Source: a virus
Direction: 5' to 3' (one strand)
IMG/VR virus record: IMGVR_UViG_3300025132_000259
Location: 1 to 25,886 of that record
Length of the DNA stretch: 25,886 nucleotides
Position numbers and translations under genes: made by a program. This document shows positions 12,778 through 24,513 of the stretch, piece by piece (the stretch's first letter is position 1; every line of letters begins with the position of its first letter). The notes under the pieces were generated by a model. The model made no database searches, was not told where the DNA came from, and saw only the letters and a program-made list of their open reading frames with translations.

Positions 12778-14148
12778 TCAAGTGCATCCAATCTTCGTAT
12801 AGAGTTTTTGTCGTTTTCGAGCGAGTCCACGCATTGCTCCGTTATCATCAACGCAATCAATGACAATCGGATCTTTCTTTTCCGGGTGTGGTCGCATGAC
12901 TCTGCCAATGCGCTGTTGTATCCGGCCCATAGCTTTCGTCGGAGTAGTAAGCACAACAGTGTCGAGTGACGGAAGATCAAGTCCTTCATCTGCGACTGTT
13001 GTGGCACATACGACTTGAATCTGTCGATCATTTGCACGTTGTAAAACCTCTGCTCTTTGTTTCTTTGTCATCCGACCAACAAGCGGTTCTGCGACAATGG
13101 TGTGTGACTGTAGGGCTTCTGCCATCCATATGCAGTGATCTACACGGTCAGATAGCACCAGAATCTGCCTGCCCTCGGCGCATGCATCGAGAATCCGATC
13201 AAGAATCCTGTTGTTTCTTTGCGTATCACTTGTCATCGTTGTGATCAGTTTAGACCAATCCAAACGATTTTTCGGGCCCAGATAGTCAGTAAAAAACCAC
13301 TCGATCTTTGGGGCAACAACGTGGCCGGAAATGGTCAGCTCTGCGTTGGTGATTTCGTATACTGCAGGACCGAAGTGCCACCAAAGAATCGACGTCAAAC
13401 CATCGGGACGATTTGGCGTAGCAGTCAGTCCGAGTCTGTATCGTGCTGGCATGCAGAACATGACTGAGCAAAACGTATTCGCTGGAACGTGGTGTGCTTC
13501 ATCAACGATACAAAGTCCGAACTGTTGCCCAAAAGCGTAGCGTTCTGTAAATGACATTCGTTCGAGAGTCTGGAAAGTCGCGACCACAATCCGTCCCGAG
13601 TCATCCTTCTTACCCGCACCATACTGAGTTGCCTTTTTGTTAAGCATGGATTCGATTCGATTCATCCACTGTACAGCAAGATCGTTGGTGTGAACCAAGA
13701 CAAGAGCCTTCGTTGCAAACTGAGTCATGGCGGTAACACCAATGGCAGTTTTACCGGCACCGCATGGAGCAATGATGACTCCCTCTCCGTCGTTTGCAAT
13801 CCAAGCGTTGAGGGCTTTTTGTTGGTAATCCCTCAATGAAAAGTGTTGTGCCACACTGATCGGTTCGTCTTTTGGTTTTGTTCTTACGTCTACCAGTTGA
13901 CCAAGATTCATCTGCGATGCGGCCTTTCTTGGCACTGCAAGCCCACCACCCCAGGGATGGTCAAACGGGATTCGGTGACATGCGTTGATGTGTTTGTCTG
14001 GGATGGGAACGTATTTGCCTCGTTCTCTCATTCCCATCGCCATTCCGTATTCTGGATTGGCAAGCCTGAATCGACTCAATGCCTCATCTTCTTTGTTGTT
14101 TCCAGGTCGAAGAAAAACTCCTCCACCCAATGCTACTTTTTCCATCAT
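12778..14148 (-). CDS. Superfamily 2 DNA helicase (XPB/RAD25-like)
   Basis: 456 residues. Helicase motifs in order: Q-like FSLRDYQQKAL (103-113), Walker A APCGAGKT (127-134), VVATFQTL (188-195), DEAH (216-219), LTATP (241-245), then in RecA domain 2 VVCATTVADEGLDLPSLD (379-396) and QQRIGRVMRP (411-420). Residues 1-100 are a family-specific N-terminus without clear motifs. ATP-driven unwinding or remodelling of DNA in replication or recombination is expected. It overlaps the VapE-type gene by 4 bases (ATGA); a second ATG follows at once, so the exact first Met is uncertain. Confidence 0.9.
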   Translation of the reverse strand: MMEKVALGGGVFLRPGNNKEDEALSRFRLANPEYGMAMGMRERGKYVPIPDKHINACHRIPFDHPWGGGLAVPRKAASQMNLGQLVDVRTKPKDEPISVAQHFSLRDYQQKALNAWIANDGEGVIIAPCGAGKTAIGVTAMTQFATKALVLVHTNDLAVQWMNRIESMLNKKATQYGAGKKDDSGRIVVATFQTLERMSFTERYAFGQQFGLCIVDEAHHVPANTFCSVMFCMPARYRLGLTATPNRPDGLTSILWWHFGPAVYEITNAELTISGHVVAPKIEWFFTDYLGPKNRLDWSKLITTMTSDTQRNNRILDRILDACAEGRQILVLSDRVDHCIWMAEALQSHTIVAEPLVGRMTKKQRAEVLQRANDRQIQVVCATTVADEGLDLPSLDTVVLTTPTKAMGRIQQRIGRVMRPHPEKKDPIVIDCVDDNGAMRGLARKRQKLYTKIGCT

Positions 14149-17054: not shown

Positions 17055-17549
17055 TTACTTCGCTGCGTCTTCCCCTTCCCCAAGGGTAGGAGCATCTTGG
17101 TCAGTCACCAACATCGGCTCGCGAACCGCCTCGATCATGGCCACCTCGAAGGTGATGCTGCCTTCGCGTTGCTTCTTAGGAAGCTTGTCGAAGACCTCAC
17201 GATCAAGCATGGCCAGTGCATCGCCCACACCCATTTCTTCAAGGAGCTTAGACTCCTTGTCCTTATCGGTGTTGAGGGCGAAGGTTACTGCATCAAGCAG
17301 CACCTTGGCGGTTTGCTCACGGGTAAACCCGGAACGCTTGGCGAAGAGAGCCAGAGCAACCTTCCACGGGATTGTGGAGGTAGCCTTGACTGGCTTTGAC
17401 TTACGGCCACGCTTCAGCCTACCAGCAAGCTTCACGACGAGGTTCACGTCGATTTCAGAGTTGTTGTCGATGTCCCGCTTTGCAAGCGAAACTGCTTTCG
17501 TGTTGAACGCCTTTGTAAGGGCGATGATTTCTTGTGATGTGAATTCCAC
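17055..17549 (-). CDS. Hypothetical protein, last gene before the terminator
   Basis: 164 residues from GTG 17549 (VEFTSQEI), with AGGAGAG 5 bases upstream; the frame is open 16 codons further but that part overlaps the previous gene. Helical: SQEIIALTKAFNTKAVSLAKRD, a basic stretch KLAGRLKRGRKSKPVKATS (about 41-57), then KVALALFAKRSGFTREQTAKVLLDAVTFAL and an acidic tail (TLGEGEDAAK). The basic patch plus helical bundle suggests a nucleic-acid contact, but no family is recognised. Directly upstream of the strong terminator, so probably last in its transcript. Confidence 0.6.
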   Translation of the reverse strand: MEFTSQEIIALTKAFNTKAVSLAKRDIDNNSEIDVNLVVKLAGRLKRGRKSKPVKATSTIPWKVALALFAKRSGFTREQTAKVLLDAVTFALNTDKDKESKLLEEMGVGDALAMLDREVFDKLPKKQREGSITFEVAMIEAVREPMLVTDQDAPTLGEGEDAAK

Positions 17550-18565: not shown

Positions 18566-18747
18566 GTCTGTTGTTTCTTTTGACGTTCTCGTCTTTGGTT
18601 ATCGATTCGCATTCGGGCTTTTGATGCCAGCGCATGAAGACCCTGCCTTTGCGCTTCTCTCATTACAGTCCGAGGGTCGTACCCTTCGTCCACAAGCTTG
18701 GACCAGGGCACTCTCCTCTTGTGCAGTCGTTCATCAGTAAGGTCCAT
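18562..18747 (-). CDS. Small basic hypothetical protein, N-terminus shared with its upstream neighbour
   Basis: 61 residues from the ATG in the GGAGAAGAGTGATG junction. Begins MDLTDERL, nearly the same as the neighbour at 18747-18947 (MDLSDERL), then diverges: KRRVPWSKLVDEGYDPRTVMREAQRQGLHALASKARMRIDNQRRERQKKQQT. Very basic and helical, likely nucleic-acid-binding. The longer frame that starts upstream is not supported by a ribosome site. Confidence 0.6.
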   Translation of the reverse strand: MDLTDERLHKRRVPWSKLVDEGYDPRTVMREAQRQGLHALASKARMRIDNQRRERQKKQQT

Positions 18748-18947
18748 CACTCTTCTCCTTCGTCCTGCGCGGGTGGCAGTGACGGGTTCCAGCTTGGTGG
18801 AACGATAAGGTCCATGACTGCCTCGACTGTGCAATCAAACATAAAGTCGTCAATCGCTTCATCCGACGAGAAGGGGCCATGCGCCTCAAACCCGTCTACT
18901 ATGTTTCCGACCAAAACAATCTGAAGTCGTTCGTCACTCAGGTCCAT
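18747..18947 (-). CDS. Small acidic hypothetical protein (MDLSDERL start)
   Basis: 66 residues. Start ATG lies 6 bases after the Shine-Dalgarno of an AGAGGTGAGTGATG junction. Sequence continues QIVLVGNIVDGFEAHGPFSSDEAIDDFMFDCTVEAVMDLIVPP and ends DEGEE, its last codons forming the next junction's Shine-Dalgarno. Acidic, with no motif. The shared MDL[ST]DERL start with the next gene points to local duplication of a junction plus its first codons. Confidence 0.6.
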   Translation of the reverse strand: MDLSDERLQIVLVGNIVDGFEAHGPFSSDEAIDDFMFDCTVEAVMDLIVPPSWNPSLPPAQDEGEE

Positions 18948-19243
18948 CACTCACCTCTCTTTGTGCAGTGTGGGCACCGCCATGATCCAGCCTTGAAGGA
19001 CCACCCTTCTCGCTGCATTTCGCGAGCAACTCCCTCCACACGCCAGTCTTGCGCGTCATCGTGGTGAGCAAGATATTCTTCTGTACACCACGGCTCGCCA
19101 TCGACTTCGTGTGTGTCGGTGTCTCGGTTGTAAACCAACTGCTTGCCCTCTGGCACATCACCGATTGGATCGCAATACACATTGACTTTGATCCGACTAA
19201 AATCAAAGTAGCTTTGTAGTGCGTCATACTTGTTTTTACCCAT
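18947..19243 (-). CDS. Hypothetical protein with a C-terminal CxxC
   Basis: 98 residues (MGKNKYDALQSYFDFSR); the preceding GTG is less well spaced than the ATG. Contains VNVYCDPIGDVPEGKQ and a C-terminal WRCPHCTKRGE, a zinc-ribbon half or thioredoxin-like CxxC. Ends RGE from the junction motif. Many Glu/Asp/Trp residues in the middle (CTEEYLAHHDDAQDWRVEGVAREMQREGWSFK). Function unknown. Confidence 0.6.
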   Translation of the reverse strand: MGKNKYDALQSYFDFSRIKVNVYCDPIGDVPEGKQLVYNRDTDTHEVDGEPWCTEEYLAHHDDAQDWRVEGVAREMQREGWSFKAGSWRCPHCTKRGE

Positions 19244-19743
19244 CACTCACCTCCTTCTGGCCACCAAGACGGGGCCTCTGTTGTTCTGTTCCACTGGGCG
19301 AACCCAGCCTTCTCACCGATGTAGAACCGTCGATACGATTCAACGGCATCGTCACTCTTGTACTTGTCAGGCATGCACAACGGGTGTGCTGTGACCTTTC
19401 GAGACTTGAAGTCAGGACCACCAAGCCAAGCCACGTCTTTGATTACTTTGCGGCAGTGACGAATGACGGCCTCGGACTTGTGGACCTTGCTGTACCGCTC
19501 AGTGTACTCGTTGGCTAAAGCCATGCCGTGCTCCCACAGCCACAGGAAGTTGCCCGTGGTCTTACGAGCCCACACAGAGCACGGGTGGTTGACGTGAGCA
19601 GACTTGTAGGGTGTCTGCCCACCCAACTCGTTGATGACCGTAGCGAGCATCTGTGCGCTCTCCAGGGTCATCTTTACTACGTGCCGGTCACACTGCATGC
19701 GTGCTGCGATGCCGGGGTCAGGGTGAAGTACAAAGATGTTCAT
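19243..19743 (-). CDS. Conserved phage protein (CDRHVVKMTLESAQML family)
   Basis: 166 residues. Signature stretches: MNIFVLHPDPGIAARMQCDRHVVKM, LESAQMLATVINEL, HVNHPCSVWARKTTGNFLWL (about 51-70), EYTERYSKVHKS. I recognise this as a family widespread in marine phages and some bacteria; it is often annotated loosely, sometimes as a pyrimidine-dimer glycosylase, but I see no motif that proves that. Invariant-looking His, Cys and Asp suggest an enzyme. Ends PEGGE from the junction motif. The largest gene in the GGE array. Confidence 0.65.
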   Translation of the reverse strand: MNIFVLHPDPGIAARMQCDRHVVKMTLESAQMLATVINELGGQTPYKSAHVNHPCSVWARKTTGNFLWLWEHGMALANEYTERYSKVHKSEAVIRHCRKVIKDVAWLGGPDFKSRKVTAHPLCMPDKYKSDDAVESYRRFYIGEKAGFAQWNRTTEAPSWWPEGGE

Positions 19744-20099
19744 CACTCACCTCCCACGATGACCATCCACGACCCGTCTGGACGTTTGCGAATATGGAGC
19801 GTTGGCTCACTCACCCAACAGTCTCCGCCGTGTCTGTCGAACTCGGCAGTCTCACACATGTCCTCCCTCCAACTAATCGTGAAGTTCAACACGTCACCAT
19901 CGGCCAGTGGAAAGTCTCGACCGAATCCACTTCGACCGTCCCAATCCAAGTCACCCGGAAGATTGTTGCTCGTGTACTGTTTGCCGCTGAGTGTTCCGAA
20001 AGCAAACTCCGCATGGTGCTTGCGTGGGTTCCACTTCCCATACTCGCGCAACCGCGCATTGATGACGGTTCTCAAATGTCGCTGACTACTAAAGTACAT
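19743..20099 (-). CDS. Hypothetical beta-rich protein
   Basis: 118 residues (MYFSSQRHLRTVINARLREYGKWNPRKHHAEFAFG). A basic helical start is followed by beta-like segments and aromatic turns (LDWDGRSGFGRDFPLADGDVLNFTISW, CETAEFDRHGGDCWVSEPTLHIRKR). Two Cys near 85 and 99. Ends SWMVIVGGE at the junction motif. No known fold assigned. Confidence 0.6.
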   Translation of the reverse strand: MYFSSQRHLRTVINARLREYGKWNPRKHHAEFAFGTLSGKQYTSNNLPGDLDWDGRSGFGRDFPLADGDVLNFTISWREDMCETAEFDRHGGDCWVSEPTLHIRKRPDGSWMVIVGGE

Positions 20100-20506
20100 C
20101 ACTCACCTCCCGACTGTTTGGAAGGTTTCTTGTAGACAGGAGCCCTGTCCAACTCAGCGCGTATGAACTTCCGTTGTTCCTTCGATGCCTGATGAAACCA
20201 GTCCTGATGGGGGTTAAGTCCAATGGAAACAATAAGTTTTCTTTTTTCGACCAAGTGATCCAGCTTGCCGATGCGAATGCCCCGCTGCTTGGCTACTGCT
20301 TCGCGGGCTTCATCGTACTCCGCTGCGGACATTCGAGAGAGATTAAGAAGTACGGCGTCAAAGACTGCGGCCCTTGCGTCAGTTTTGATTACATCAAGTT
20401 TGAGGGTAGGACCCCCGTCTGGACGTTCTGCTTGTAAGACAACGTGTTCCAGTACTGACATTAGACTTCTTTCCAGTGTGGTCAGATACGCATATTCTTC
20501 ACCCAT
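20099..20506 (-). CDS. Hypothetical helical protein
   Basis: 135 residues (MGEEYAYLTTLERSLMSVLEHVVLQ). Contains AAEYDEAREAVAKQRGIRIGKLDHLVEKRK, a helix-turn pattern often found next to primase/helicase domains in phage proteins (GIR-G-LD-LV). The C-terminus is basic (AELDRAPVYKKPSKQSGGE). It could be a small DNA-binding early protein; not proven. Confidence 0.6.
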   Translation of the reverse strand: MGEEYAYLTTLERSLMSVLEHVVLQAERPDGGPTLKLDVIKTDARAAVFDAVLLNLSRMSAAEYDEAREAVAKQRGIRIGKLDHLVEKRKLIVSIGLNPHQDWFHQASKEQRKFIRAELDRAPVYKKPSKQSGGE

Positions 20507-20754
20507 CACTCACCTCCTTTTGCTTTAGCGATTGCAGCTTTCAGTCGAGGCAGAACAACAGTCACATCCGTTGGTCGGTCACTGTTGTGGTCCTCGCAGT
20601 AGTCTTCAATGTCCATGACTACTTCTTCAAGTGCAGCCAACAACTCGGGCGCAGCCTTGTACAGGCGATAGCCATCGTCGCCCAGAGCGAAGCGTTGCTG
20701 ACGTTCTCTGCGTTCATCCACTTGCTTGGCGTATCGTTCAAGTCTTCCGCCCAT
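20506..20754 (-). CDS. Small hypothetical protein
   Basis: 82 residues (MGGRLERYAKQVDERRERQQRF). Mostly helical with a strongly charged start, then YRLYKAAPELLAALEEVVMDIEDYCEDHNSD and PRLKAAIAKAKGGE. The C-terminal AKAKGGE is shared with the 48-residue gene at 21510 (TKAKGGE), showing that the repeated junction reaches into coding sequence. The segment LYKAAPELLAALEEV is common in short phage proteins. Confidence 0.6.
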   Translation of the reverse strand: MGGRLERYAKQVDERRERQQRFALGDDGYRLYKAAPELLAALEEVVMDIEDYCEDHNSDRPTDVTVVLPRLKAAIAKAKGGE

Positions 20755-20963
20755 CACTCACCTCCAAACGGTTCGCCGTGAATCTGGCCCACCAACTCAT
20801 CCGCTGCGTGGTTCCAACTGTCATCGCACTGGTCCCAATGCGCCGCCAGTTGCTCCCTGATGAAGTCAATGATTGCAGACTTGTGTCCTTGTGCGTCTGG
20901 ACGCAACTCGCTGATGAGAATCTGCGCCACCAGTTCTCGGTTCTCTTTTGTGTTCTTAGCCAT
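20754..20963 (-). CDS. Small acidic hypothetical protein
   Basis: 69 residues (MAKNTKENRELVAQILISELRPDAQGHKSAIIDFIREQLAAHWDQCDDSWNHAADELVGQIHGEPFGGE). Starts in a TAATG version of the junction. Helical and acidic; the short stretches between charged residues look like a helical bundle. Ends FGGE. No function recognised. Confidence 0.6.
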   Translation of the reverse strand: MAKNTKENRELVAQILISELRPDAQGHKSAIIDFIREQLAAHWDQCDDSWNHAADELVGQIHGEPFGGE

Positions 20964-21217
20964 TACTCACCTCCTGCGCTTTTTCGCTTCCAGTAGTCTT
21001 GGTCGTACCCGTCACCGACTTGGTAGAAAGAATGCTCTACTTCCGAGTGAAGAAAGCAATGTTCAGCGTGTATGTCGCCAGTGCCTTGAACCGTCTTGTT
21101 GTTTACGATTTCTTGGATGGGTAGATGTTCCCCGTCGCTCACGCGAACGATCACATCCTGATTCAGTTGCTCTGGTGTCAAACCGTTGAGTTCTTTCAGT
21201 AGCTTTCGATACGTCAT
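20963..21217 (-). CDS. Small hypothetical protein
   Basis: 84 residues (MTYRKLLKELNGLTPEQLNQDVIVRVSDGEHLPIQEIVNN). This start matches a family of short phage and bacterial proteins whose first helix and strand read LLK-L-LTPEQL--DV-V, of unknown function. The C-terminal half (DIHAEHCFLHSEVEHSFYQVGDGYDQDYWKRKSAGGE) is His/Glu/aromatic rich and might bind metal. Ends AGGE. Confidence 0.6.
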   Translation of the reverse strand: MTYRKLLKELNGLTPEQLNQDVIVRVSDGEHLPIQEIVNNKTVQGTGDIHAEHCFLHSEVEHSFYQVGDGYDQDYWKRKSAGGE

Positions 21218-21510
21218 CACTCACCTCCGTTTGCAAAGTCATTCAGTTGTTTGCGCCACACATTGATGGCAACGTCCACGTCTCCTGGCATCAGGTCAGG
21301 GAACCTGCACACACCTTTCATGTAGGCCTGCTCAAGAGCCTCGGTCTCCCGTCGGCGACTCTCCACCAGTCTGACCAACTTGGCGACGTTCTCATCGCTG
21401 AGGTCACGGCGACCATTGAACCAATCGACCAGCAGGTCGAGCGGTTTGTTGTCAACCTCGAATGATACAGGCGCTCGGCACCCGTCACACTTTCCACACT
21501 TCCGTGCCAT
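21217..21510 (-). CDS. Small zinc-binding-type protein
   Basis: 97 residues. The first 12 residues MARKCGKCDGCR contain three Cys in CGKCDGC spacing, a likely metal site. A helical middle follows (LLVDWFNGRRDLSDENVAKLVRLVESRRRETEAL) with VCRFPDLMPGDVDVAINVWRKQL and the GGE end. Starts in a TAATG junction. A small zinc-bearing regulator or adaptor; function unknown. Confidence 0.55.
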   Translation of the reverse strand: MARKCGKCDGCRAPVSFEVDNKPLDLLVDWFNGRRDLSDENVAKLVRLVESRRRETEALEQAYMKGVCRFPDLMPGDVDVAINVWRKQLNDFANGGE

Positions 21511-21656
21511 TACTCACCTCCTTTGGCTTTAGTTAGGGCAAGGTCAATCAGTGCCGCTGCATCGCCAAGTGAATCTTTCCAATCAGGTTTCGGGTCATCC
21601 GAGATAGCATCGAGCATGCTGGTCAAGATGGCTTCAAGTTCCTCTGTTGTGAGCAT
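21510..21656 (-). CDS. 48-residue hypothetical protein in the GGE array
   Basis: Frame between two junction motifs: MLTTEELEAILTSMLDAISD, then DPKPDWKDSLGDAAALIDL, ending ALTKAKGGE. Its start and stop are both set by the fused motif, its neighbours are spaced the same way, and its C-terminus matches the gene at 20506, so it is a real cassette despite its length. Predicted helical and acidic. Confidence 0.65.
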   Translation of the reverse strand: MLTTEELEAILTSMLDAISDDPKPDWKDSLGDAAALIDLALTKAKGGE

Positions 21657-21901
21657 CACTCACCTCCTTCGGCTTTGGTTTGGTTTCTCTTGGCTTCTCT
21701 CAATGCTTCAGCAGCAGCGATGCCGGCTTGAATGAAGAAGTCCTCTGCTCTTTCGTGGTGTACAACTTCATCCCAGTCAGGAACCACGTGGTAGAACTTC
21801 TCACCACCCTCAAGGCGGGTCAGTTGTTCTTCGGTAACAGCAATGGGCGTGGGCTCACTGAGCGTCCACGTTTCGCCGTCGTCAAGTACATATACAATCA
21901 T
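21656..21901 (-). CDS. Small hypothetical protein, upstream end of the GGE array
   Basis: 81 residues from ATG 21901, preceded by AGGAGAACAGAA; the long frame open upstream lacks any ribosome site and is Trp/Arg-rich shadow sequence. Begins MIVYVLDDGETWTLSEPTPIAV and ends KRNQTKAEGGE. It has a beta hairpin start (VYVLDDGETWT), EEQLTRLEGGEKFYHVV, then helices. The unit 'DDGETWTLSEPTPI' resembles short phage proteins of unknown role. Confidence 0.65.
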   Translation of the reverse strand: MIVYVLDDGETWTLSEPTPIAVTEEQLTRLEGGEKFYHVVPDWDEVVHHERAEDFFIQAGIAAAEALREAKRNQTKAEGGE

Positions 21902-22609: not shown

Positions 22610-22800
22610 TACTCTTCTCCTTTGAAGGGCACGATGGCCCCATCCTTCTCGATTGTGAACATATGCATGCCGTCATGGCCGGACTGAGAGTGCATTGCGT
22701 GGACAACCAAGTTGCCGTCCACCACCTGGACCTCAACCTGTGATTCCTCAAAACCCACCCACACCGTGTCTTTGTCGTTGCTCTTTACTGTGATGTTCAT
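22609..22800 (-). CDS. Small beta-rich hypothetical protein
   Basis: 63 residues (MNITVKSNDKDTVWVGFEESQVEVQVV). Alternating strands (VWVGF, VEVQVVDGNLVVHAM, MHMFTIEKDG) suggest a small beta barrel. Its ATG overlaps the upstream stop (ATGA) and it ends KGEE at the next junction. His/Met-rich middle (HAMHSQSGHDGMHMF). Function unknown. Confidence 0.6.
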   Translation of the reverse strand: MNITVKSNDKDTVWVGFEESQVEVQVVDGNLVVHAMHSQSGHDGMHMFTIEKDGAIVPFKGEE

Positions 22801-22982
22801 GACTGCTCCTGAATGACCTTCAGGTCACATGATTGGCAAATGATGTTGCGCTTGTGGTCGAAGGGCTTGACCAGCCATTCGGTGCCGAGTGGGCTGTACC
22901 AGGGTTCAATGATGACACCGGTCTTGGTGCCGTAGTGCTTGGTTTGGACGACGACTACGTCGCCGGGTTTGAGGTCGTTCAT
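22797..22982 (-). CDS. Small SH3/KOW-like protein
   Basis: 61 residues; CAGGAG 7 bases before ATG 22982. MNDLKPGDVVVVQTKHYGTKTGVIIEPWY reads like the first strands of a KOW/SH3-type barrel (LKPGD-V-V----G--G-I), followed by a CQSC pair near the end. Such small barrels often bind RNA, DNA or ribosomal proteins. First annotated gene after the long leader 22983-23304. Confidence 0.55.
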   Translation of the reverse strand: MNDLKPGDVVVVQTKHYGTKTGVIIEPWYSPLGTEWLVKPFDHKRNIICQSCDLKVIQEQS

Positions 22983-23304
22983 GATGGGCTCCTGTTGTTT
23001 GAAATGTTGTCGATGGGTGGTACTGCCCCACCTTGCAGGGCTAATCCCTGCTGCCTGATCCGTTATTCCCGTTGCCGGGTTTGGCGTGAACGAGCGACCT
23101 TGGCTGGGACTTCGTTATCCATCCCAGTTTGACTGACCAGATACAGGTGACGAGTCTGTCTGGTTCTGAATAGCCCCGGAGGTGGTCACCCTCTGCGATA
23201 GCTATCTCCAAGCGCATTACTTTTATGCTTCATCGACATATGTAAAAGAGTAGCGGTTTTGATAAGCAGACCGCAAACTGCTCCCTCTCCCGGAGTTCTC
23301 TGAA
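22983..23304 (-). promoter_or_regulatory. Long structured leader of the accessory operon
   Basis: About 320 bp between the promoter at 23305-23334 and the gene at 22797-22982. Read leftward it carries several small stems: CTGGGA/TCCCAG (23105-23110/23123-23128), GCAGGG/CCCTGC (23035-23052), GGTGG/CCACC (23017-23033), CCCG/CGGG (23068-23079) and the palindrome GATAGCTATC (23197-23206). It contains no long conserved frame; the only candidate is the 58-codon one at 23041-23217. It could be a structured 5' UTR, a small RNA, or the site of a short gene. No known RNA class matches by eye. Confidence 0.4.
23041..23217 (-). CDS. Possible 58-residue hypothetical protein
   Basis: Frame from ATG 23217 to TAG 23041: MRLEIAIAEGDHLRGYSEPD, then RLVTCIWSVKLGWITKSQPR, ending in a Gly/Asn/Ser tail. 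The ribosome site is weak, and the frame coincides with the hairpin-bearing leader, so coding is uncertain. The N-terminal half looks protein-like and has no rare-codon pile-up. Listed because it is the only candidate gene in this 300-base gap. Confidence 0.25.
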   Translation of the reverse strand: MRLEIAIAEGDHLRGYSEPDRLVTCIWSVKLGWITKSQPRSLVHAKPGNGNNGSGSRD

Positions 23305-23334
23305 CTTATACACCTGTTTGGTTTCGGGTGTCAA
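23305..23334 (-). promoter_or_regulatory. Sigma70-type promoter, leftward
   Basis: On the leftward strand TTGACA (plus 23329-23334) and TATAAG (plus 23305-23310) are 18 bp apart, the same spacing as the promoter at 18536-18565, with ACAGACTTGACA identical in both. It lies 18 bp after the stop of the gene at 23352-23684. It should give a transcript with a leader of about 320 bases before the gene at 22982. Confidence 0.65.
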
Positions 23335-23351
23335 GTCTGTCAATGAATGAG

Positions 23352-23684
23352 CTACTTTTCGTTAGCCCACTCAGTGAATCGATGCCCATCGCTTTGGACG
23401 TCGACTCGCATCGGCTCTGTGCAAAGCTCAACGTGCTCCTTGCCGTCGAACCGAATGTTGAAGCGTCGACCATCCGTAAGGATGATGCATGCGGCAGCAG
23501 TGCCACCGTTGGCTTCCATGCCGATGCTCAATGAATGAACCAGAGGTACAATCATTTCACCGTCATCAGTGAACTCTGTGCATGGTTGAATCTCAACCAT
23601 CGCCTCATCGAAGAAGTATTCGTCCTGGTCGATTGAGCCGCCGTTGCTCGACCATATTCTGAACTGATTTATTTTTGCTGTAAT
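23352..23684 (-). CDS. Hypothetical protein with a probable AUU start (copy B)
   Basis: 110 residues if translation starts at ATT 23684, which follows AGGAGG and TGTCCC at 6 bases. No ATG, GTG, TTG or CTG occurs in frame before ATG 23600, residue 29, whose only GAGG lies 2 bases away, too close. The N-terminal 28 residues (ITAKINQFRIWSSNGGSIDQ, then DEYFFDEA) are clearly protein-like, so the gene should begin upstream of 23600. The rest alternates strands and loops (MIVPLVHSLSIGMEANGGTAAACIILTDG), a possible small beta domain. Function unknown. Confidence 0.6.
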   Translation of the reverse strand: MTAKINQFRIWSSNGGSIDQDEYFFDEAMVEIQPCTEFTDDGEMIVPLVHSLSIGMEANGGTAAACIILTDGRRFNIRFDGKEHVELCTEPMRVDVQSDGHRFTEWANEK

Positions 23685-23750
23685 GGGACACCTCCTGTGT
23701 GTCTGGGGTTGTTTGTTTCGCTCTCACCCTTACAAACGAACTGGGTGATT
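23685..23750 (-). repeat. Conserved leader with hairpin before an AUU start (copy B)
   Basis: Shares with copy A (24059-24116) a 24-base identical block (plus 23707-23730 versus 24076-24099) and the 14 bases around the ribosome site (23685-23698 versus 24059-24072). In the leftward transcript TCACCC (plus 23743-23748 complement) and GGGTGA (plus 23724-23729 complement) form a 6-bp stem before the shared block. In copy A the corresponding stem has different bases (ACCCTA/TAGGGT), so pairing is kept while sequence changes. Confidence 0.7.
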
Positions 23751-23773
23751 TTTTCGGAGATAGGTCAGGTTGT

Positions 23774-24058
23774 TCATCGAGTGATACGCTCGGCATTCCA
23801 CTTGATGAGAAAAGGCATCACGTCACGCTGGAACGCTGCGAGCAAGTCACGAACCACGTCGTTGGGTTCCTCACCATTGGCAAGGGCCTGCCGAATGGCT
23901 TCGTCGTTATGGTCAATGAACAACTGAAGCATGCTTGTGATGCTTGCCGCCATATCAATCGGCATGTTCAAGGACTCAGCCAGCGCAATCGCACCGGGCT
24001 TGATGGCTTCGGCGAACTTATCAAGTTCAGCCTGTGTCGATGGAATGTTGGTAAGAAT
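23774..24058 (-). CDS. Hypothetical helical protein with a probable AUU start (copy A)
   Basis: 94 residues from ATT 24058, again 6 bases after AGGAGG with TGTCCC between. Upstream in frame the next stop is TAG in the leader; the first usual start codons inside are a TTG at residue 30 and ATG at 32, without a ribosome site. The sequence from the ATT is protein-like: ILTNIPSTQAELDKFAEAIK, then PGAIALAESLNMPIDMAASI and NGEEPNDVVRDLLAAFQRDV. All-helical and acidic. Not related to copy B in its body, only in its leader. Confidence 0.65.
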   Translation of the reverse strand: MLTNIPSTQAELDKFAEAIKPGAIALAESLNMPIDMAASITSMLQLFIDHNDEAIRQALANGEEPNDVVRDLLAAFQRDVMPFLIKWNAERITR

Positions 24059-24116
24059 GGGACACCTCCTGTAATGGTTGTTTGTTTCGCTCTCACCCTA
24101 CAGAACGATAGGGTTT
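24059..24116 (-). repeat. Conserved leader with hairpin before an AUU start (copy A)
   Basis: Partner of 23685-23750. The shared 24-base block is at 24076-24099 and the shared ribosome-site block at 24059-24072; only the 3-base stretch between them differs in length from copy B (12 bases more or less). Stem: plus ACCCTA 24095-24100 pairs with TAGGGT 24109-24114. Confidence 0.7.
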
Positions 24117-24147
24117 TTATTCATGGACAATGGGAAGGGGGCAGCCG

Positions 24148-24513
24148 CTATTGCGGCCACCACCCAAAGCCCTGCTCATTGTCAGGGGTACCCTGCGCTC
24201 GGCGTTGCTTAGCCTCACGCTCGGCTTGCTCAGCAGCCTTGGCTGCGTCACACTCTGCAAGCAGTTCGTCAGCGCCCTCTACAATGTGGCTCTGAACAAG
24301 TGCCGCGATACTGGCGGCATCCGATACCATGGGAACCTCAACGACATGCAAGTCGCTGGGCTCGCCCCACAGTAGAAAATCAGTCCGTCGCTCTCTGGCA
24401 AGTGCGTCACGAGCGGACTGCGCTTGCTCCCGAGTGGGTGCAACGGCAACCGTTCTGTTGCCACTGCCATCCCAGTGTTGGACAAGGAAGAAAGAAGTGA
24501 TGGTAACCTCCAT
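24148..24513 (-). CDS. Hypothetical protein with a long charged C-terminal helix
   Basis: 121 residues from ATG 24513, 3 bases after the 30-codon gene's stop. A beta-like N-terminus (MEVTITSFFLVQHWDGSGNRTVAV) is followed by a helical basic segment (REQAQSARDALARERR), a strand region, and a helix EGADELLAECDAAKAAEQAEREAKQRRAQ, ending GFGWWPQ. ATG has no ribosome site upstream; instead GGAGG lies at its codons 2-3, 5 bases before ATC (residue 5), so initiation may be unusual here too. Confidence 0.6.
   Translation of the reverse strand: MEVTITSFFLVQHWDGSGNRTVAVAPTREQAQSARDALARERRTDFLLWGEPSDLHVVEVPMVSDAASIAALVQSHIVEGADELLAECDAAKAAEQAEREAKQRRAQGTPDNEQGFGWWPQ

Follow-up and report, generated by a model that had tools for sequence, protein, structure and literature searches.

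The window analysed here is an entire IMG/VR contig of 25,886 bases from a tailed phage, and its genes include RecT, a RecE/YqaJ exonuclease, a helicase and a VapE primase-helicase. Three small genes, g3, P1 and P2, follow one another on its minus strand (Table 1). We observed that AGGAGGTG-TCCC-ATT stands at the start of both P1 and P2, below a duplicated leader, and that both frames open with ACAGGAGGTGTCCC-ATT. The string AGGAGGTGTCCCATT occurs in exactly two copies in the window (23682-23696 and 24056-24070), the sole further match needing three mismatches, a level at which 0.63 matches are expected by chance; GGTGAGAGCGAAACAAACAAC gave two matches versus none expected. From the nearest upstream in-frame stop to the ATT, neither gene has an ATG, GTG or TTG, and each frame reaches its first canonical codon at TTG 23971 in P1 (codon 30) and at ATG 23600 in P2 (codon 29). 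A first-pass annotation, made from the letters alone, had proposed AUU starts here, and its sequence and coordinates for the two sites proved correct on recheck. Its statement that no in-frame ATG, GTG, TTG or CTG follows for 28–29 codons holds for the first three triplets, but P1 has a CTG at codon 26.

Table 1. Positions of the genes and signals discussed in the text (window numbering).
Feature	Position	Strand	Remarks
P1 coding sequence	23774..24058	-	94 aa; orthologues in L041 (74%) and L087 (64%); codons 1-29 under purifying selection, as judged from dN/dS
ATT initiator codon, P1	24056..24058	-	6 nt after AGGAGG (4 nt after AGGAGGTG); very likely start; orthologues L041 ATT, L087 ATC
Extended Shine-Dalgarno AGGAGGTG, P1	24063..24070	-	predicted duplex with 16S tail, -14.3 kcal/mol
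P2 coding sequence	23352..23684	-	110 aa; open frame with coding-like codon use
ATT initiator codon, P2	23682..23684	-	very likely start; AGGAGGTGTCCC context as in P1
Extended Shine-Dalgarno AGGAGGTG, P2	23689..23696	-	predicted duplex with 16S tail, -14.3 kcal/mol
P1 leader hairpin, type B	24095..24114	-	7-bp stem, z -2.2; resembles leaders in L044, L091, L100
P2 leader hairpin, type A	23724..23748	-	6-bp stem, z -2.6; resembles leaders in L041, L045, L087
Mutually identical 24-nt leader blocks	24076..24099 (above P1), 23707..23730 (above P2)	-	
g3, gene upstream of P1	24148..24501	-	probable ATC start at 24499-24501; GGAGG-TTACC-ATC
w17, GTG-start gene	17055..17549 (also given as 17058-17549)	-	orthologues with ATT/ATC at the start position

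Neither P1 nor P2 matched Pfam, a fold comparison with P1 gave no match, and searches of phage records with the window DNA and with both proteins, as well as single-protein scans of IMG/VR, found nothing. Relatives were obtained from IMG/VR via the VapE gene; a search for the host by genome scan gave no match. One P1 orthologue came through VapE (L041, 74% identity over all 94 residues from residue 1, with an ATT start) and a second from a scan for the leader pattern (L087, 64% identity, with an ATC start). Further searches for homologues of P1 and of the TNRQM family (below) added none.

Could translation begin instead at the downstream canonical codons, leaving the upstream part untranslated? 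These codons are the first canonical ones in frame and the ones that standard gene finders would choose. However, P1 is conserved as protein above them: dN/dS before any canonical start (codons 1–29 or 3–29) was 0.44 against L041 and 0.39 against L087, compared with 0.34 and 0.31 downstream of codon 29, and the N-terminal 29 codons of P1 are thus under purifying selection, as judged from these ratios. The first canonical codon lies at position 30, 32 or 13 in the P1 orthologues, so they share no alternative start. In a three-sequence AlphaFold model of P1 (mean pLDDT 76), residues 9–29 form a predicted helix that would be lost if the protein began at the TTG of codon 30. The first-pass annotation counted homologues lacking the upstream 28 residues as evidence against its reading; the L041 orthologue aligns from P1 residue 1. 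Orthologues with a canonical start were not found for P1, and P2 gave no orthologue of any sort. The gene at the equivalent position in L087 had no significant similarity to P2, either as a short N-terminal piece or as full proteins. Because P2 has no orthologue, the case for its start is the context that it shares with P1. An antisense frame at 23699-24295 was also considered as the coding frame and was rejected, as it carries stops in L041, L087 and L002.

Other genes of these phages, with canonical starts in some relatives, give the clearest evidence. The w17 family aligns without gaps at its start (42 distinct sequences, mostly 164 residues). GTG occupies the start position in 26 distinct sequences, mostly as AGGAG-AGTGCT-GTG; L049/L150 has ATG there, and seven sequences have ATT or ATC (L035-L042, L045, L047, L051 and copies), all of the latter 4 nt after AGGAGGTG. 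In most ATT/ATC copies the Shine-Dalgarno contains a stop TGA two codons upstream, so that no earlier start is possible, and in the w17 tree ATT/ATC is kept across a clade. A second family, TNRQM, begins ATG-CGA-ACC-CTT-ACA-AAC-CGA-CAA-ATG in L041, ATC-AAA-CCC-ATC-ACA-AAT-CGT-CAA-ATG in L044 and ATT-ACA-CCC-ATC-ACT-AAT-CGT-CAA-ATG in L091. These alignments indicate that ATT and ATC occupy exactly the ATG/GTG position of orthologues, and the residues between them and the downstream canonical codons align with those that follow ATG/GTG in relatives, which makes downstream starts very improbable. Altogether, AUU or AUC starts were found in seven families of the clade: P1, P2, g3, w17, TNRQM, the L045/L028 family (ATC in both members) and a gene at L087 8180-8389. 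Homology, rather than the Shine-Dalgarno, led to the starts of w17, TNRQM and L028 only. A structure model of w17 was too poor for use (pTM 0.37). A broad homology survey for conserved extensions above canonical starts was swamped by antisense frames, and the overlap filter applied to it dropped known sites such as P1; with that filter it gave no further convincing family, and more families may exist.

For g3, the ATG that a gene finder would pick (24511-24513) overlaps the Shine-Dalgarno (ccATGGAGGttaccATC), and orthologues have CCG or TTG there, which suggests that g3 is probably four codons shorter and starts at ATC. The L100 orthologue reads GGAGG-TCATC-ATC, and from its upstream stop to that ATC it contains no canonical start; L087 has the same Shine-Dalgarno and ATC.

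A sequencing or assembly error, with ATT read for a true ATG, could be suspected in one metagenomic contig. But seven gene families have ATT/ATC starts, in many contigs that come from different samples, and the first-pass argument against such an error is borne out by the same architecture in many independent contigs and by the exact ATT/ATC to ATG/GTG correspondence between orthologues; we regard the chance of an error as negligible. The same correspondence supports AUU as the true start of P1 and P2, and, from the IMG/VR relatives, initiation at AUU/AUC is very likely.

The unusual codons nearly always come with unusually strong predicted pairing to the 16S tail. The w17 ATT/ATC starts, a set found by homology, reach -14.1 to -16.2 kcal/mol, compared with -7.7 to -10.8 for the GTG starts and -3.2 to -11.2 for the ATG starts of that family. 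Among the canonical starts of the window and of five long relatives, the median is -6.9 kcal/mol, and 7% of them lie at -12 or below. Weaker exceptions are g3 (-10.5 kcal/mol) and L028 (ATC, -7.6 kcal/mol). In two neighbouring rows of the w17 family, L113 (ATT, -14.1) and L150 (ATG, -9.8), codon and Shine-Dalgarno both differ.

We also surveyed the codon 4 nt after AGGAGGTG wherever it opened a frame of at least 45 codons, a criterion that selects strong Shine-Dalgarno sequences by design. In the near clade (VapE identity of at least 71%; 1.03 Mb including overlaps, each context counted once), the codon was ATG in 67 cases, ATT in 7, ATC in 6, and AAT and GTG in 1 each. Distant relatives had ATG 16, GTG 3, GAG 1 and GCT 1, with ATT/ATC at 0, and four control phages had no AGGAGGTG with an open frame at this distance. 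The difference between near and distant relatives (Fisher p 0.065) is suggestive of a restriction of ATT/ATC to the near clade; the sites are partly orthologous, so the counts are not independent events. ATA was not seen as a start. Furthermore, 21 whole records held nine AGGAGGTGNNNNATH sites versus none for the reversed pattern.

The leaders above P1 and P2 share a 33-nt repeat (88% identity). The 24 identical upstream bases of the first-pass annotation were confirmed within it, but around the ribosome site 17 nt are identical (ACAGGAGGTGTCCCATT) rather than 14. The hairpin had been described as 6 bp with differing yet pairing bases; both copies do pair (ACCCUAU/GUAGGGU above P1, UCACCC/GGGUGA above P2), but the P1 stem has 7 bp and the register differs too. 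Both fold better than most shuffles. A scan of IMG/VR with the exact leader pattern gave no match, and a looser pattern added L087 plus two chance matches, L083 and L085. Among nine distinct leader copies, all form the hairpin despite changes in stem sequence (z -1.1 to -4.4). Type A leaders read close to CTCTCACCC-CRTTCGTTTGTAA-GGGTGAGAG, and type B leaders close to CCCTMTCGTTCTGTAGGGTGAGAG, usually followed by a CA-rich linker. In L094, the stem is of another sequence (TGCTCAC/GTGAGCA) and still paired. A search of the whole window against Rfam (riboswitch, thermosensor and leader families) gave no match up to E = 1. The GTAAGGGTGAGAG element was considered as a T7-like promoter; the single-subunit RNA polymerase (PF00940) was matched in none of nine relatives, and none of the control genomes matched either.

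Do leader and AUU codon form one control element, as first proposed? The results speak against it. The codons below the nine leaders are ATT (three), ATC (four), GTG (one) and ATG (one); the last two belong to ordinary genes, in L091 (AGGAGCCATC-GTG, leader at 13875) and on the minus strand of L094 (6699). As w17 orthologues have ATT/ATC with an extended Shine-Dalgarno and no leader, leader and start codon are separate. In the window the leader precedes P1 and P2, but in L002 and L100 it precedes g3, which indicates that it moves between genes. Directly after g3, L002, where P1 and P2 are absent, carries the same sequence as the window has at 23030-23345, a stretch of about 300 nt on the minus strand between P2 and the gene at 22797-22982. 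This stretch has no clear gene, opens with a sigma-70-like TTGACA...TATAAG and has no Rfam match.

It is conceivable that the leader is instead a translational switch that hides the Shine-Dalgarno, CATCTCC upstream of the hairpin pairing with GGAGGTG, and that the start codon merely lowers the leak. The lowest-energy folds of the L041, L045 and L087 leaders do contain this 7-bp pairing around a 9-bp hairpin. However, it is absent from those of both window leaders, which are no better than shuffles (z -0.1 and 0.06), the z for L087 is only -1.8, the TGTCC of type B leaders leaves a mismatch, and w17 genes use ATT/ATC without any leader. We consider such a switch unlikely. Recoding, in which ribosomes ending a short upstream frame would hop or shift into P1 and P2 with the ATT not serving as a start, would fit the short frame that each window leader contains, with its end at the hairpin (MNKNPIVL-stop ahead of P1, MNNLTYLRKNHPVRL-stop ahead of P2). 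But L100 (with ACG), L041, L045 and L087 have not kept the upstream ATG, the take-off and landing codons mismatch, the spacer between leader block and Shine-Dalgarno differs in length between P1 and P2, and w17 has no such short frame; recoding is hardly credible.

We therefore favor, with a probability of roughly 85%, the reading that P1 and P2, and probably g3, start at AUU/AUC with a compensating Shine-Dalgarno, in a recurrent design to which the leader is a separate addition. In this design, the ordinary initiator tRNA of the host would presumably read AUU or AUC as formyl-methionine; the relatives scanned have only Asn, Tyr and Leu tRNAs and no special initiator. The poor codon-anticodon match would be offset by a near-perfect AGGAGGUG Shine-Dalgarno, which puts AGGAGG 6 nt ahead of the codon and may hold the 30S subunit in place long enough. 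This pairing of weak start and extended Shine-Dalgarno appears to recur in seven families of one marine tailed phage clade, with AUU/AUC retained through divergence. Its likely effect would be to keep translation low and limited by initiation, with a dependence on the fidelity of start-codon choice (the level or activity of IF3) and on the supply of host ribosomes. The hairpin leader would be a 5' element of its own, duplicated and exchangeable, which probably affects transcription or the 5' structure of the mRNA, and the AUU start would work without it. A tRNA-Asn(GTT) gene lies downstream of VapE in several related phages, namely L030, L034, L040, L048 and L049 and more distant loci such as L052, L055 and L060; the window is without any tRNA gene.

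Is the weak start regulatory? AUU starts are known from E. coli infC and pcnB, and infC encodes IF3, which autoregulates. The P1 and P2 starts share the AUU initiator with these two genes, and the weak, fidelity-limited translation seen there may apply here by analogy. Unlike infC, which encodes IF3 itself, the phages do not appear to supply the factor: IF3 (PF00707) had no match in nine related phage records, where a control matched in 10 of 14 genomes, and autoregulation of the infC type, in which the product is IF3, was not found. In Staphylococcus aureus, cvfC1 (AUU) and ccpN, citZ and infC (AUA) have extended Shine-Dalgarno sequences, and in poor medium they are expressed at about 10% of the AUG level (PMC13009471). 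Like the phage genes, they combine an AUN start with an extended Shine-Dalgarno and are conserved between species; on the other hand, they are chromosomal and known from ribosome profiling and reporters, whereas our case is a phage one, with AUU/AUC in seven families and evidence from sequence comparison. Streptomyces sigR starts at GTC, and its repression by IF3 was shown by experiment (PMC5472188). It too has a non-canonical start missed by annotation, for which fidelity-based control is proposed, but it encodes a regulator in a sigma/anti-sigma pair and uses GTC rather than ATT/ATC. By analogy with infC, sigR and the S. aureus genes, it is plausible that P1 and P2 are sensitive to IF3 or initiation fidelity.

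More tentatively, AUU/AUC may be a regular second class of start for small accessory genes, jointly throttled by the host IF3 level, with expression that would shift in concert as infection changes the translation apparatus of the host; we put this at well under even odds. A serious rival, itself somewhat short of even, is that the starts are real but neutral: with a strong Shine-Dalgarno and perhaps a permissive host, the codon would drift without any regulation. The w17 codon (ATG, ATT/ATC or GTG) indeed shifts together with Shine-Dalgarno strength, and the leader is not tied to the start codon. Against drift, ATT/ATC occurs in seven families and is kept over long branches where ATG is common elsewhere, and ATA does not appear; this retention weighs little, since T and C interchange more easily than either changes to G. 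The combination of AUU/AUC with a strong Shine-Dalgarno hints at a deliberate weak-start design.

AUU initiation has also been described in the mobile element IS911 (Polard 1991, cited in PMC9523058), where it is tied to programmed transposase frameshifting; a leader cassette or multi-gene recurrence is not known there. In Borrelia burgdorferi, an AUU start of pncA/BBE22 was missed by annotation, leaving the protein 24 residues short (PMC13398362); that is a single plasmid gene, compared with seven phage families here. The open-access literature searched gave neither a phage case nor a report of a clade in which AUU/AUC starts recur. Bacterial AUU starts are therefore known, and their recurrence across a phage clade is new as far as open-access papers show, although a report may exist.

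Gene finders limited to ATG, GTG and TTG will shorten such genes or overlook them, and phage proteomes may therefore hide an overlooked gene class. If the codon is regulatory, these genes together would form a natural set controlled through start-codon fidelity, for which the ATG/GTG orthologues are ready comparisons, and viral exploitation of initiation fidelity would become a directly testable question. Shine-Dalgarno sequences mark another part of the window as well: at 18747-21735 on the minus strand, many consecutive small genes have a Gly-Gly-Glu C-terminal end, since their last codons overlap with a GGAGGTGATG-like Shine-Dalgarno that belongs to the following gene.
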